Shown: positions 657 through 30,535 of the stretch, one piece after another
Position numbering within the stretch: the stretch's first letter is position 1
Layout of the letters: every line of letters begins with the position of its first letter
IMG/VR virus record: IMGVR_UViG_3300042485_002328
Location: 1-33,129 of that record
Direction: 5' to 3' (one strand)
Origin: a virus
Length of the DNA: 33,129 nucleotides
Position numbers and translations under genes: made by a program
The notes under the pieces: model-generated
Told to the model about the DNA's origin: nothing
Seen by the model: the letters and a program-made list of their open reading frames with translations, nothing else
The model's database searches: none

Positions 657-1340
657 TCACCCGATAAAATTCATTTTGTTGTACAAAGCGCGGCACTTAA
701 CAACATCTTGCTTGTTGTATTCGGCTATTTCTTCAATACGTCCATCAAGCCAGTAGTCATAGACTTTTGAGCCGTCAATATCGCCTTTCCCCTCGAAGCC
801 AAAAGCCTTGCTAAGTGCGTCCAAGCTACCAATACCGGAATATTGACTTGTACCCGTCCACGCAACTTTTGTGTCGAATACTTTTGAGTCCCAAGGCTTT
901 GCGTCATACGGAATATGAACGGATGGCCTCACGCCTAACATCACGCAGCGTTGCCAGATGAACCGCAAATCAAAGCCGGTGATGTAATGCCCTGACCAAG
1001 TAGAGATGTGGACCTTTTGTCCGTACTTATCCGTCAACTCGTTAATATCCACAAAGAACGCGCGTAATAAGCCAGCTTCATTATCATCATAACGATAATT
1101 GACATTAACCTCGCCATCATCCAGCGCCCACGCTATAGAGATGATCTCGCCCAATGCGCCATCAAAGGACTGTTTACGGTGCTGTTCATTGGCGGCATCA
1201 TCGGCTTTTTCCGCATACCATTTATCAATCGTGGCTTGCACTGACATAGTGGCAGGCGGTTTAATGTTTTCGCGGATAGCCTCGACAACCCCTTTTTTCT
1301 GGCTAGGGATAGTCTCAATATCAATATGAAGGATGCTCAT
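657..1340 (-). CDS. DEDD-family 3'-5' exonuclease (PolB-like exo2 type)
   Basis: The 227-aa protein matches the predicted PolB-like 3'-5' exonuclease family. Motif Exo I is HIDIETIPSQ (D7, E9), Exo II is GFDLRFIWQR near residue 124, and Exo III is the YNKQD pattern with Y208 and D212. These acidic residues bind the two catalytic metals in DEDDy exonucleases. The start codon overlaps the stop of the ERF gene (ATGA), so the two are probably translationally coupled. Next to an annealing protein, the likely role is processing DNA ends for phage recombination, or repair. That pairing is inferred from context; the nuclease family is seen directly. Confidence 0.9.
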   Translation of the reverse strand: MSILHIDIETIPSQKKGVVEAIRENIKPPATMSVQATIDKWYAEKADDAANEQHRKQSFDGALGEIISIAWALDDGEVNVNYRYDDNEAGLLRAFFVDINELTDKYGQKVHISTWSGHYITGFDLRFIWQRCVMLGVRPSVHIPYDAKPWDSKVFDTKVAWTGTSQYSGIGSLDALSKAFGFEGKGDIDGSKVYDYWLDGRIEEIAEYNKQDVVKCRALYNKMNFIG

Positions 1341-2778: not shown

Positions 2779-2806
2779 ATTATCCGCCTAATGCGGATTA
2801 AGTCAA
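2779..2806 (-). promoter_or_regulatory. PL-like promoter for the leftward recombination operon
   Basis: On the minus strand the -35 is TTGACT (2806-2801), the spacer 16 bp, and the -10 GATAAT (2784-2779), giving a start near 2772. The operator at 2782-2798 lies in the spacer and shares GAT with the -10, exactly as the rightward operator does at PR. CI or Cro binding should therefore block it. Confidence 0.75.
2782..2798. promoter_or_regulatory. OL1 operator
   Basis: A perfect ATCCGC-CTAAT-GCGGAT dyad, 6+5+6 bp. The same half-site, GCGGAT, recurs at three other places around PL and PR, and nowhere in this pattern elsewhere that I noticed. It overlaps the PL spacer and -10. It is a predicted binding site for the phage CI and/or Cro protein. 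Confidence 0.75.
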
Positions 2807-2821
2807 CTGCAAATAGCGGAT
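2805..2821. promoter_or_regulatory. OL2 operator (one good half-site)
   Basis: AACTGC-AAATA-GCGGAT: the right half is perfect and the left matches 4 of 6 positions. The spacer is identical to that of OR2 (AAATA). Its centre is 23 bp from the OL1 centre, similar to the 24 bp between the two rightward operators, so cooperative repressor binding is plausible. It overlaps the PL -35. Confidence 0.6.
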
Positions 2822-3018: not shown

Positions 3019-3507
3019 TTATTTTGAATCTTCGTAGTCGTGCTGTACTGCTTCAATAAATTCCTTATCGGCTGGTTCGTCTCCCTGCCGCCTTCGATGA
3101 TAGGCAGATAAGGCATCAGGCAGGTTCACCCCCCCCCCCACATTTTCCGGTCGGGGTGTCAAGGGTTTATTTTCTTTATTTTGCGATAATTTGAAGTCAA
3201 TAAACTCATTAACTTCTTTTTGCTGATCTGCACAGAGTGAATTGAATTTATCTAATAGGGGAGATGATTGTTGTTTGTCATCAAGACGTTTTAATCCCTT
3301 TCCACGCATGAGCCAGTCAATATTAACATCAAATTTATCAGACAAAATAATTGCCAAATCCATTGATGGTAATTTCTCCCCTCGAAGCAACTCACTTACA
3401 AAAGATTTAGACAAGCCTAGCCACTCAGCAAATTTATATTGAGTTTTTGGCGCATCACACTCTATTTGTAGCGCCTTTAATCTACCAGCAAAACCTTTGT
3501 AGTCCAT
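3019..3507 (-). CDS. cI: CI-like phage repressor with HTH domain, no peptidase domain
   Basis: A 162-aa protein. Residues 22-48 form an HTH_3/Xre-type helix-turn-helix (TQYKFAEWLGLSKSFVSELL) followed by the usual LPSMDLAIILSDKFDVNIDWLM helix pair. The C-terminal 90 residues lack the Ser-Lys S24/LexA peptidase seen in lambda CI, so RecA-driven self-cleavage is not expected. An antirepressor or another trigger is more likely (inference). The start at 3507 is chosen because PRM ends exactly there. An upstream in-frame ATG at 3582 would cover the promoter and operators. An 11-G tract encodes Gly124-126; loss or gain of one G makes stop codons within five codons. Confidence 0.85.
   Translation of the reverse strand: MDYKGFAGRLKALQIECDAPKTQYKFAEWLGLSKSFVSELLRGEKLPSMDLAIILSDKFDVNIDWLMRGKGLKRLDDKQQSSPLLDKFNSLCADQQKEVNEFIDFKLSQNKENKPLTPRPENVGGGVNLPDALSAYHRRRQGDEPADKEFIEAVQHDYEDSK
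3129..3139 (-). repeat. homopolymer of 11 G (coding strand) inside repressor gene
   Basis: Eleven consecutive C on the plus strand, G on the coding strand, encode the end of Val, three Gly and the start of Val. Removing one G gives an immediate TGA, and adding one gives TGA after four codons. Long G tracts are classic slippage sites in phase-variable genes. Here it lies in an otherwise AT-rich gene. Confidence 0.9.
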
Positions 3508-3513
3508 AAAGTT

Positions 3514-3542
3514 ACTATATGCTAAAAATAATCCGCTGTTAA
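3514..3542 (-). promoter_or_regulatory. PRM-like promoter of repressor gene (leaderless)
   Basis: Minus strand: -35 TTAACA (3542-3537), a 17-bp spacer, -10 TATAGT (3519-3514). The seventh base after the -10 is the A of the repressor ATG at 3507. No ribosome-binding site precedes that ATG. A leaderless transcript is therefore predicted, as known for lambda cI from PRM. OR1 overlaps the -35 and spacer. Confidence 0.72.
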
Positions 3543-3547
3543 CAGTT
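3531..3547. promoter_or_regulatory. OR1 operator (one good half-site), next to PRM
   Basis: ATCCGC-TGTTA-ACAGTT: the left half is a perfect match to the shared half-site, the right half is weak (3 of 6). It overlaps the PRM -35/spacer and touches the PR -35. By lambda analogy, filling it would shut PRM off, or its weakness would set the order of filling. Confidence 0.55.
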
Positions 3548-3574
3548 GCAGTATTTCCGCAAATAGCGGATAAT
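3546..3574 (+). promoter_or_regulatory. PR-like promoter of cro operon (leaderless)
   Basis: -35 TTGCAG (3546-3551), 17-bp spacer, -10 GATAAT (3569-3574). The seventh base after the -10 is 3581, the A of the cro ATG. At most a few untranslated nucleotides are possible (only AGAG lies before the ATG). OR2 covers the spacer and part of the -10. Confidence 0.72.
3555..3571. promoter_or_regulatory. OR2 operator over PR
   Basis: TTCCGC-AAATA-GCGGAT, 11 of 12 half-site positions matching the OL1 dyad. Its geometry relative to the PR -10 (shared GAT of GCGGATAAT) is identical to that of OL1 at PL, so one protein should control both early promoters. Confidence 0.72.
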
Positions 3575-3580
3575 AGAGCC

Positions 3581-3778
3581 ATGAATATATTCCTTAAGTT
3601 AAAAGAAGATTACGGAACGCAAGAAAAAGCAGCGTTGGCTATAGATGTCTCAACGTCTACATTTTCCGAGTGGATTAATAACGTAAAGGCTCCAAGTAAA
3701 AGCAACATGAAAAAATTACGCAAAGCTGGTTTTTCAGCTGAAGAAATATTCGATTCCTGCTTTACGGACGGTAAATAA
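3581..3778 (+). CDS. cro: Cro-like HTH transcriptional regulator
   Basis: A 65-aa protein with a Cro/YdaS-type helix-turn-helix at about residues 13-39 (TQEKAALAIDVSTSTFSEWI), followed by a short tail. It is divergent from the repressor and first on the rightward transcript, the classical position of cro. Expected to bind the same GCGGAT operators and shut down PRM and the early promoters. The start codon coincides with the predicted transcription start, so it may be translated as a leaderless mRNA. Its size is typical of Cro proteins. Confidence 0.8.
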   Translation: MNIFLKLKEDYGTQEKAALAIDVSTSTFSEWINNVKAPSKSNMKKLRKAGFSAEEIFDSCFTDGK

Positions 3779-8930: not shown

Positions 8931-9212
8931 TTAAGCGGCAATATGCAAGTTAATATTCAGAGCCTTGATGATGCGCTGCACAGTATCCCATTTAGGCTGT
9001 GTTTTACCGGACAAGGCTTTGTAAAGGCTCTCACGGTTAAGCCCGGTATCAGTAGCAAGTTGGGCAATACCTTTGGCTTTGGCAGCATGACCCAGTGCAG
9101 CAACAAAAACAGCAGGGTCATCATCCAAAAATGCTTGCGTCAAGTAGTCGCCCATATCCGCTTGAGTCAACAAGTGATCGAAAGGGTTATAAAGTTTTGT
9201 TTCAGTTTTCAT
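8931..9212 (-). CDS. HigA-type addiction-module antidote protein
   Basis: A 93-aa protein of the putative addiction module antidote family: an N-terminal YNPFDHLLTQADMGDYLTQA segment typical of these antidotes, then an HTH at about residues 45-80 with GIAQLATDTGLNRESLYKAL. It should neutralise the toxin by binding it and repress the module through its HTH. It follows the toxin gene by 9 nt, the toxin-first order usual for HigBA-like pairs. The pair lies opposite to the surrounding phage genes, suggesting separate control and separate acquisition. Confidence 0.88.
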   Translation of the reverse strand: MKTETKLYNPFDHLLTQADMGDYLTQAFLDDDPAVFVAALGHAAKAKGIAQLATDTGLNRESLYKALSGKTQPKWDTVQRIIKALNINLHIAA

Positions 9213-9221
9213 CGGGAAGTC

Positions 9222-9515
9222 TCACAAGTTTTTAGCCAGTTCTTTGGCTTGTTTAATATCGTTTTGTTGGGAAGATTTATCACCACCACACAGCAATATA
9301 ACAATTTCGTTATTACGGATAGTGTAATAAATTCGATAGCCTGGGCCAACAAAAATACGCAGTTCACTCACACCATCACCAATGACTTTAGTATCACCAA
9401 AGTTACCACTAGCAACCCTAGCCAAACGCAACGCTATTGCCATAGCTGCTTGACGGTCTTTCAACTTGGCAGTCCATTTGTCAAAAACTTCAGTAGTGTG
9501 TATTTCGTAATTCAT
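9222..9515 (-). CDS. HigB/RelE-type toxin, phage-derived Gp49-like
   Basis: A 97-aa protein of the Gp49-like/HigB family, part of the RelE ribonuclease superfamily. Landmarks are TTEVFDKWTAKLKDRQA at the N-terminus, GVSELRIFVGPGYRIYY (about residues 48-64) and LLCGGDKSSQQNDIKQAKEL near the C-terminus. Family members cut mRNA on the ribosome. The start codon sits 7 nt after the predicted -10, so the toxin mRNA looks leaderless. In a phage the module may stabilise the prophage or block other phages; this is inference. Confidence 0.88.
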   Translation of the reverse strand: MNYEIHTTEVFDKWTAKLKDRQAAMAIALRLARVASGNFGDTKVIGDGVSELRIFVGPGYRIYYTIRNNEIVILLCGGDKSSQQNDIKQAKELAKNL

Positions 9516-11223: not shown

Positions 11224-11492
11224 CGATTGAAGCAACGCTAGAAGAAAGAGGTAGCCGTTATGGTGCATTTACTGAACATGCGCGTATCACCCAAAACATT
11301 AAACGCGCTATGGCTGACAGTCCTAACTGGGATACTTTAAAAGACGATCAACGAGAGTGTTTAGAAATGGTGGCGCATAAGGTTGGCAGAATATTAAACG
11401 GGGATCCTGATTACCATGATTCATGGCACGATGTAAACGGGTACGTGAAGTTGGTGGCTGATTTGCTGATACCTGAGAAGTTACTTTTATGA
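11220..11492 (+). CDS. DUF6378-like phage protein, 90 aa
   Basis: The pattern ERGSRYGAFTEHARITQNIK near the N-terminus, followed by LKDDQRECLEMVAHKVGRIL and DYHDSWHDVNGYVKLVADLL, is recognisable from many siphovirus and podovirus proteins annotated DUF6378 or hypothetical. The His- and Asp-rich DYHDSWHD segment is strongly conserved in that group and may bind metal or nucleotide, but no activity is established. Overlaps the methyltransferase gene by 4 nt. Confidence 0.75.
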   Translation: MTIEATLEERGSRYGAFTEHARITQNIKRAMADSPNWDTLKDDQRECLEMVAHKVGRILNGDPDYHDSWHDVNGYVKLVADLLIPEKLLL

Positions 11493-12145
11493 AGTTTGCG
11501 TACTACAACGAATTTGATCCAAAAGCAGCGGCTTGGATTAAGCAGTTAATTAAAAATGGCATGATTGCTGATGGGGAAGTGGATGAACGCAGTATTACAG
11601 AAGTCACAGCAGACGAGATTAGAGGATTTACTCAGCACCATTTCTTTGCTGGCATTGGAGGCTGGTCATATAGTCTCAGATTGGCAGGATGGGCAGACGA
11701 CAGACCTGTTTGCACCGCCAGTCTCCCTTGCCAACCCTTCAGTGTTGCAGGAGCGCAAAAAGGAGTTGATGACGACCGACATTTGTTACCGCACTTTATC
11801 GAACTCGTTAAGCATTGCAATTTCCAAACAATTTTTGGCGAACAAGTACCAGGCGCAATCAAACACGGCTGGCTCGATGATTTATGTACTGAAATGGAGC
11901 GAGAAAAGTACCGAGTTGGGCAGATTGTACTCACAGCAGCAGGCGAGGGTGCGCCCCATATCCGACAAAGACTGTACTGGGTGGCCGACAGCATCAACAA
12001 GGGATCACAAGGGCGGTTATCTGGGTGGCAGGATCAGGAACGGGAAATTGTCAGTGGATACGCTGGATGTAGCGGCACAGTTGGGGGGTTATCCAACCCC
12101 GAAAACGGGTACGGGGGGGGGCGAACCACAACTCGCCACAAGTAA
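11489..12145 (+). CDS. dcm: C5 cytosine DNA methyltransferase, N-terminal catalytic part (frameshifted at G9)
   Basis: The 218-aa readable product contains C5-methyltransferase motif I FAGIGG (53-58), motif IV PCQPFS with catalytic C81, a motif VI-like GEQV (117-120) and motif VIII GAPHIRQRLYW (153-164). It lacks motifs IX and X, needed for a complete enzyme. Reading ends 24 nt after a run of nine G. With one G fewer the frame enters the displaced C-terminal half and runs to 12800, giving 436 aa. Motif VI has GEQV where ENV is usual. The enzyme would methylate cytosine in DNA; as written it is probably inactive. Confidence 0.85.
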   Translation: MKFAYYNEFDPKAAAWIKQLIKNGMIADGEVDERSITEVTADEIRGFTQHHFFAGIGGWSYSLRLAGWADDRPVCTASLPCQPFSVAGAQKGVDDDRHLLPHFIELVKHCNFQTIFGEQVPGAIKHGWLDDLCTEMEREKYRVGQIVLTAAGEGAPHIRQRLYWVADSINKGSQGRLSGWQDQEREIVSGYAGCSGTVGGLSNPENGYGGGRTTTRHK

Positions 12146-12729
12146 TGTCGGGGAATCATGGGATAAACTTGGAAGGGATGGCTCATGTAGTGGGATGGGC
12201 AACACCGAATTGCATGGACGATTTGCCTCAGAGATCGGACGAAGCATTAGCGAGAGCGAAACAGAAGGCAGGATGTTGCAATCTGAAAGATCAGATACCG
12301 TTAAGCGGATGGGCTACACCGAACACCAACAACACGAAGGGCGCGTATCTGGACATAGAGAAGAATCTGGCGAGAACAGCGAACGGGCGGCAGGTGAATC
12401 TGCAAGACCAATGCAAGCTATCGGGTTGGGCGACACCGAACACGCTGGACAATTTACCAGCAAGGAGTCAAGAAGCGATGCAACACCAATTCGACACAGC
12501 AAGACCGGGGCGAACAGCACCAGCGAATCTGAGGGAACAAGTACATCCAGAATTATATCCGAATGGACTGACCCAGACTGGCTCTACTGTAGAGACGAAA
12601 AGTACCGGCCAATTAAATCCGGCATTGAGCCGTTGGCTAATGGGCTTTCCAGAGGAATGGGATATAGCAGCGATCCAAGCGAGCCGATTGACCCCGACAA
12701 CACGCAAGAAGCGCGAGTCATGCGTTTAA
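11565..12729 (+). other. second long reading frame overlapping the cytosine methyltransferase
   Basis: In the +1 frame relative to the methyltransferase, before the G9 tract, the translation reads SDWQDGQTTDLFAPPVSLAN, then FLANKYQAQSNTAGSMIYVLKW, shortened here to FLANKYQAQSNTAGSM, then CTGWPTASTRDHKGG and LGGYPTP. After the tract, one frame further on, it continues with three GWATPN repeats and ends QLNPALSRWLMGFPEEWD before a stop at 12729. The same single-base change that restores the methyltransferase also joins these two parts. From memory, proteins with GWPTP repeats and a LNP-RWLMGFPEEW tail are often annotated in phages. Whether it is translated is unknown. Confidence 0.5.
12113..12121 (+). 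repeat. homopolymer of 9 G inside cytosine methyltransferase gene
   Basis: Nine consecutive G at the exact point where the methyltransferase reading frame is lost. Eight G would give a 436-aa enzyme with motif X; nine give a 218-aa truncation; ten give the enzyme's N-terminus joined to the GWATPN frame. This is the arrangement expected of a phase-variable or sequencing-sensitive tract. Confidence 0.9.
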
Positions 12730-12800
12730 AAGGTTATGGTAATGCAATAGTGCCACAAGTGGCGGCTTCTTTTATCAAAGCATTTATGGAGGCGACATGA
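12122..12800 (+). pseudogene. displaced C-terminal half of the cytosine methyltransferase
   Basis: This open frame lacks its own start signal. It contains a Ser/Glu/Gly-rich variable target-recognition region, then DPDWLYCRDEKYRPIKSGIE and the motif X sequence RLKGYGNAIVPQVAASFI. These are the standard end of phage C5 methyltransferases. Its TGA overlaps the ATG of the next gene behind GGAGG, showing that this frame is the ancestral end of the gene. Confidence 0.8.
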
Positions 12801-30068: not shown

Positions 30069-30128
30069 ATGGACTTAGTACAAAATACAGCAGATAAACT
30101 GCAAAACCTATTAAGAGAGTACCTATGA
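30069..30128 (+). CDS. possible 19-aa leader peptide
   Basis: ATG 30069 opens a 19-codon frame (MDLVQNTADKLQNLLREYL) that stops in an ATGA overlap with the next gene. The next gene has its own weak AAGAGAG signal. The amphipathic peptide could be real or only couple translation. It is too short to judge. Confidence 0.3.
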   Translation: MDLVQNTADKLQNLLREYL

Positions 30129-30535
30129 GTTTATTAGACTTTGGAAATACGAACTACAAACAAGCCAATTATGCTAGTGAAGAATCGACTAGGTTGGCTA
30201 ATGCATTGCAAGCATCAAGATCAAGCATTAGAACCCAGGAAATAGCTGCAAAAGCAGCTGCACAAGGCGCTATGCTAGGTGCAGGGGTTGGTGCCGTATC
30301 AGATTATAAGTCTGCACCTAAGACTAATGCAAATACTAGCACCGCTATCTCTGCTGACCCAGTCAACCCTCAAGGACTAGGTGCTATCTCTGCTGACCCA
30401 GTCAACCCTCAAGGACTAGGTGCTATCTCTGCTGACCCAGTCAACCCTCAAGGACTAGGTAAATCTAGTTCAGTTGGATCAAGATCTAGTTCAGGCAATG
30501 ATCTATTGAGTAAGTTTAGTAACCTGTTTGAATAG
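30125..30535 (+). CDS. small virion-type protein with 13-residue tandem repeats, 136 aa
   Basis: N-terminus MSLLDFGNTNYKQANYAS, an Ala/Gly segment (AAAQGAMLGAGVGAVSDY), then three identical AISADPVNPQGLG units (about residues 74-112) and a Ser-rich tail. The hydrophobic Ala/Gly stretch resembles those in neighbouring ejection-type proteins. No family is known. The perfect repeats imply recent expansion. Confidence 0.6.
   Translation: MSLLDFGNTNYKQANYASEESTRLANALQASRSSIRTQEIAAKAAAQGAMLGAGVGAVSDYKSAPKTNANTSTAISADPVNPQGLGAISADPVNPQGLGAISADPVNPQGLGKSSSVGSRSSSGNDLLSKFSNLFE
30344..30460 (+). repeat. three perfect 39-bp tandem repeats
   Basis: Units 30344-30382, 30383-30421 and 30422-30460 are identical at the nucleotide level and in frame, each encoding AISADPVNPQGLG. 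Identity of synonymous positions implies very recent duplication or active slippage or recombination. Confidence 0.95.

Follow-up and report, generated by a model that had tools for sequence, protein, structure and literature searches.

Neisseria, Haemophilus, Campylobacter, and Helicobacter possess simple-sequence contingency loci, in which poly-G or poly-C tracts give rise to phase variation. Among phage regulators, Lambda CI and LexA-like repressors carry an S24 peptidase. For SinR-type and SPC32H Rep-type repressors, we know of no tail that is controlled by a homopolymer. SPC32H Rep acts as a tetramer, which its antirepressor breaks up (PMC9638917). Here we analyze a window of viral DNA (33,129 nt; positions 1-33,129 of IMG/VR record IMGVR_UViG_3300042485_002328) with a lysogeny repressor that shares with Lambda CI and LexA-like systems an HTH domain, a divergent cro-like gene, and two candidate operator groups but is without the S24 peptidase. 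The repressor gene contains a G11 tract, which we consider likely to be a contingency locus: slippage of the poly-G run would toggle the C-terminal tail of a prophage repressor without a peptidase, and the cassette concerned is present on several diverged repressors. The features discussed are collected in Table 1.

Table 1. Features of the window, with positions counted from its first nucleotide.
Feature	Position	Strand	Basis or remark
Lysogeny repressor, 162 aa, ATG at 3507; HTH, two helices, Gly linker, tail	3019..3507	-	Pfam, PHROG, relatives
HTH DNA-binding region, untouched by slippage	3310..3444	-	Pfam HTH_3; AlphaFold helices 23-59, pLDDT ~90
Conserved linker SQNKENKPLTPRPEN, directly before the tract	3142..3186	-	Common to repressors of different HTH type
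Slip-prone G11 tract	3129-3139	- (C11 on + strand)	Last G of Val123, Gly124-126, first G of Val127
Switched C-terminal tail, residues 127-162, dibasic RR motif, predicted disordered	3022..3129	-	Substitution counts; AlphaFold
Divergent cro-like HTH gene	3581..3778	+	Pfam HTH_3 1.9e-5, weak P22_Cro
Candidate operators in the repressor-cro gap: ATCCGC at 3531; TCCGCAAATAGCGGA at 3556-3570	3531..3571	.	Palindrome and motif scan
Second candidate operator group: ATCCGCCTAATGCGGAT at 2782-2798; GCGGAT at 2816	2782..2821	.	Palindrome and motif scan
G9 tract in the cytosine-methyltransferase region	12113..12121	+	Closes two overlapping frames in this record
C-5 cytosine methyltransferase N-part (PF00145, phrog_363), cut at 218 aa by G9	11489..12145	+	Pfam, PHROG
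Overlapping frame: phrog_1008 N-part before the tract, phrog_363 C-part after it	11565..12800	+	PHROG, ORFs
Third frame: phrog_1008 C-part / phrog_31772	12145..12729	+	PHROG

The repressor matched only HTH families in Pfam (HTH_3, 2.3e-7; Phage_CI_repr, 6.1e-5), its PHROG assignment was transcriptional regulator, and full-length relatives were identified at 91, 69, and 58% identity; tblastn of the protein against phage GenBank records gave zero matches. No S24 peptidase domain was detected in the Pfam search, and residues 110-162 of the model were without secondary structure. Two groups of ATCCGC/GCGGAT palindromes flank the gene and are arranged alike in the related contig L018, where a gene 97% identical to the cro-like gene of the window adjoins the repressor. 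As judged from the sequence, the combination of a repressor, a divergent cro-like gene, and two palindrome groups resembles the immunity region of a temperate phage. No integrase was found within the window; among related records, an integrase scored above the cut-off in 11 of the 20 searched, and AntA, the sole antirepressor family sought, was present in 1 of 18 (G002). Elsewhere, the window encodes a toxin-antitoxin-like pair (8931-9515, minus strand), composed of a Gp49/ParE-like protein and an HI1420-type antidote, and a protein with three tandem copies of ISADPVNPQGLGA (30125-30535).

Loss of one G from the tract (G10) yields ...VGGG followed by an immediate stop, after Gly126 of the repressor, and gain of one G (G12) yields VGGGGEPA and then a stop, four codons on. 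With either length the repressor is deprived of its last 36 residues and keeps its HTH domain. An upstream ATG at position 3582 is an alternative start that would give a 187-aa form of the protein and leave the tract unchanged. The original prediction, made from the letters of the window, had thus located the tract and its Gly124-126 codons exactly, had given both TGA stops correctly, and had come within a residue of the loss (about 35) while rightly sparing the HTH domain; its lysogeny repressor without a LexA-like peptidase agrees with the HTH-only Pfam matches, the cro-like neighbor, and the operator-like palindromes. The genome, which it called AT-rich, is so, but only mildly (42.7% GC). 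As in bacterial contingency loci, the tract is an in-frame homopolymer far beyond chance length: 300 order-3 Markov simulations of the window produced zero runs of at least 11, and G 8-mers number 6 in comparison to the 0.22 expected, a count of 6 being reached in 0 of 100 shuffles. The longest other G/C run in the window is the G9 tract of Table 1, and the next is a G7.

The AlphaFold model of the window repressor comprises a confident HTH domain and helices at residues 83-89 and 93-109, with pLDDT below 50 over residues 123-162. On the basis of this distribution, with confident structure upstream and none from residue 123, slippage should spare DNA binding and oligomerization and remove a flexible tail. 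A fold search with the model gave weak best matches, which mostly concern the HTH (2kpj, 5d4z, 9sf2, and SinR, with E values of 2e-3 to 2e-2); SPC32H Rep (5d4z), SinR, and the phi106 repressor were among the top matches. In the tail of the L035 repressor, which is of a longer type, the model showed just one helix (147-188) of moderate confidence, and a Pfam search with the long tail type returned zero families. Long-type tails (L035, L025, L016, and L140) include a Cys-rich segment, CxxxxCYCEPxC, for which metal binding is possible.

A search of IMG/VR with the repressor protein returned eleven loci, 9 of which carry a G run or end at it. A DNA pattern, used also in degenerate form, added further loci, and L036, L038, L175, and L182 were obtained by genome searches. 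The linker LTxxxENVGGGG, or a near variant of it, recurs together with a run of G8-G16 at the homologous site and a C-terminal tail in about 25 IMG/VR contigs and four host-genome loci, and almost no locus has a longer G/C run than the tract; the distant L010 and L011 have a longer C-terminal domain, S24-like by eye, instead of the G run. At least three HTH types carry the cassette, pairwise similarity between types being absent or marginal, and several tail types exist. Loci with differing N-termini agree at 96-100% of positions over stretches of 41-52 bp before the tract, and L017 is a mosaic that joins the HTH type of L024 to the middle and tail of L014. These observations argue that linker, tract, and tail constitute a cassette capable of passing from one repressor to another. 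The picture thus differs from that assumed in the original prediction, in that the switch acts on a distinct and mobile cassette at the C-terminus and leaves the repressor core as it is.

Several candidates were rejected. A conserved TTGACA before the tract was dismissed as an internal promoter, the -10 box falling inside the G run and L139 and L140 reading TTGACT; the same two loci weaken any strict invariance of the element at the DNA level. Most loose-pattern matches were unrelated to the cassette, and L013, L032, L037, L039-L042, L138, and L141 were set aside after reading as matches by chance. In L141, which is another virus contig, a G11 run lies directly behind the stop of an unrelated HTH gene (~4412). 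L015 (G15) was excluded as a length variant of L033, as its contig ends 4 bases past the tract and its additional G most likely corresponds to a T. L033 has two repeat copies with G8 (1575 and 1870) close to the 3' terminus of its repressor gene.

The tail was readable in 27 loci. It was in frame in 18 and out of frame in 9 (viral L026, L034, L017, L029, and L022; host-genome L036, L038, L175, and L182), so that in-frame and out-of-frame copies of an otherwise intact gene coexist, as in a contingency locus; L027 was without a recognizable tail in all frames. The intended frame of each out-of-frame copy was taken to be the one that is open at another tract length and that contains DRR/DKR or another shared motif, and an RR/KR motif is present in most in-frame tails. 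Random lengths would place 1/3 of the copies in frame, in comparison to the 18/27 observed (p=4e-4), and with likely duplicates removed 16 of 21 viral contigs were in frame (p=7e-5). The excess indicates that the tail is favored, though absent in some copies.

That excess, together with the recurrence of the tract at one site in several diverged repressor types, bears on the simplest alternative, namely that the poly-G run is a Gly linker turned homopolymeric, with neutral changes in length and a dispensable tail. Such a linker would be compatible with the predicted disorder of the tail and with its being missing in 9/27 loci. Its glycines, however, are encoded exclusively by GGG, which makes up only 9.4% of the glycine codons in the other genes of the window, so the two to five consecutive GGG codons in every cassette member are not the result of codon drift. 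Furthermore, the long tail type (L016, L025, and L035) exhibits dN values of 0.03-0.04 and dS values of 0.4-1.3 (dN/dS ~0.02-0.09), and the short tail type, which includes the window, has a pooled nd/N of 0.17 versus an sd/S of 0.39. On these substitution counts the tail is translated and under purifying selection, and we regard a neutral linker as unlikely.

Closely related loci differ in tract length. Two contigs from two metagenomes, L026 (G10) and L034 (G12), show no difference in the 400 bp to either side of the tract, and over 3.8 kb (96.8% identity) their remaining gaps lie outside homopolymers. This was the one pair in which a long stretch around the tract is identical yet the length differs. 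L014 (G8) is in frame, whereas L017 (G10), which agrees with it at 112/112 downstream bases, is out of frame, and the window (G11) and L018 (G14) differ in length and are both in frame; L139 and L140 have the same length (G11), as do L021 and L025 (G14). Length thus differs between near-identical copies (L026/L034 and window/L018), as expected of a contingency locus, and the invariance that the original prediction had named as evidence against a switch does not hold at the level of near-identical contigs.

The out-of-frame lengths could nevertheless be errors of sequencing or assembly in a gene that is always in frame in nature. Every length in our set comes from an assembly consensus, and errors are common in homopolymers of 10-16; two-color sequencing mishandles poly-G. 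The contigs L005, L148, and L150 also terminate in or directly beside the tract, either because lengths were mixed in the sample or because assemblers simply fail there. Such errors are quite improbable as the explanation, however: the differences exceed one base (sister loci have G8, G10, and G12, and in-frame copies G11 and G14), the near-identical pairs compared contain no further homopolymer indel, and several MAGs, independent of one another, are out of frame, as is a 4.8-Mb contig. Homopolymers can slip in expression as in replication, and the immediate stop in the shifted frame would yield a clean truncated form, but programmed ribosomal or transcriptional slippage, by which each genotype would make tailed and tail-less repressor at a fixed ratio, is very improbable given that a programmed site is expected to hold one length and that length and frame differ among relatives.

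The host-genome copies come from the Methylococcaceae, one from a 4.8-Mb contig and the others from MAGs, the genome searches having covered the family of the two initial MAGs (Methylococcaceae). The host of the window is apparently a methane-oxidizing member of the Methylococcaceae, as suggested by these relatives. None of the 4 host-genome copies was in frame, in comparison to 18 of 23 viral contigs (Fisher p=0.007, for a post hoc comparison that includes four host loci). One out-of-frame copy occurs among phage genes in the 4.8-Mb contig (L182/L204), and another, on a MAG contig (L164), is accompanied by CinA, AntA, and an integrase. Because out-of-frame copies reside in bacterial genomes, truncation probably leaves lysogeny possible, and the tail-less repressor seems compatible with lysogeny. 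G runs of at least 11 were rare in host genomes, being present in 36 of 61, mostly at 1-3 per genome, and most were unrelated to the cassette. A 2.2-Mb genome of the family (G192) has 15 such runs, far above its relatives.

We return to the tract as a contingency locus. The slip switch is well supported, whereas its reversibility and its phenotype are what we infer from it. Slipped-strand mispairing would add or remove single G residues, and the resulting change of frame would toggle the tail while the HTH domain and the following helices were retained. Switching may be reversible within one population. The tail would then tune release of the repressor, as a docking or turnover module, rather than DNA binding, and the tail-less form would still maintain lysogeny, perhaps less inducibly; the contrast between host copies (0/4 in frame) and viral contigs (18/23) fits a tail needed for release rather than for repression. 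A more specific and tentative proposal, which we consider possible though doubtful, is that a partner (antirepressor or protease) grips the tail, that the tail-less form locks the prophage in, that lysogens drift between the two states at rates like those of mutation, and that the cassette is a mobile determinant of inducibility. Such drift would explain why the host copies are all out of frame and the viral contigs mostly in frame.

The original prediction also paired the repressor with the G9 tract in the methyltransferase. The pairing is fair in that this tract is likewise variable in length (G8/G9), but the methyltransferase, a putative regulator of phage fate in that prediction, is out of frame in the window. 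A length of G8 would join the N- and C-parts of phrog_363 and, at the same time, both parts of phrog_1008. In L046, which is 95-96% identical around the tract, the run is G8 and both frames are open; L102 has G9 and a closed methyltransferase frame. Most other relatives are without a G run here, and most have both frames open. Over most of their length (window 11489-12800), phrog_363 and phrog_1008 appear to overlap in different frames, and the majority of some 20 relatives show the same layout. In L004 (contig IMGVR_UViG_3300044715_000695), which is related to the window, there is a G9 run (820-828, minus strand) within a ParB-like/adenine methyltransferase gene.

If the heritable repressor switch is real, it would offer prophages another means, in addition to SOS cleavage and antirepressors, of hedging between dormancy and release. 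The slip-prone cassette suggests that phage dormancy is controlled in part by genetic switching that is rapid and probably reversible. The hosts are apparently methane-oxidizing bacteria, in which prophage stability bears on methane turnover. Phase variation of a phage lysogeny repressor, or a switchable mobile repressor tail, was not found in the open-access literature; a paper on C. jejuni CJIE1 was discarded as a precedent, its homopolymeric tracts lying in host genes (PMC4004267). Poly-G phase variation is already known, and our analysis suggests that its occurrence in a lysogeny repressor, where it would switch a mobile tail, is new. SinR-type and SPC32H Rep-type repressors combine an HTH domain with helical oligomerization, have no peptidase, and are switched off by a partner protein; the window repressor is likewise without S24 and matches their fold weakly. 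The methyltransferase tract resembles phase-variable DNA methyltransferases (phasevarions) in that a cytosine methyltransferase region carries G9 in the window and G8 in L046, but it is carried by a phage, and a single indel there affects two overlapping frames together, opening or closing both. The repressor tract is like the bacterial contingency loci in being an in-frame homopolymer of variable length with an on/off outcome set by frame. The targets of those loci are mainly bacterial surface structures and restriction-modification genes, whereas here the target is a phage lysogeny repressor, of which only the tail is affected.
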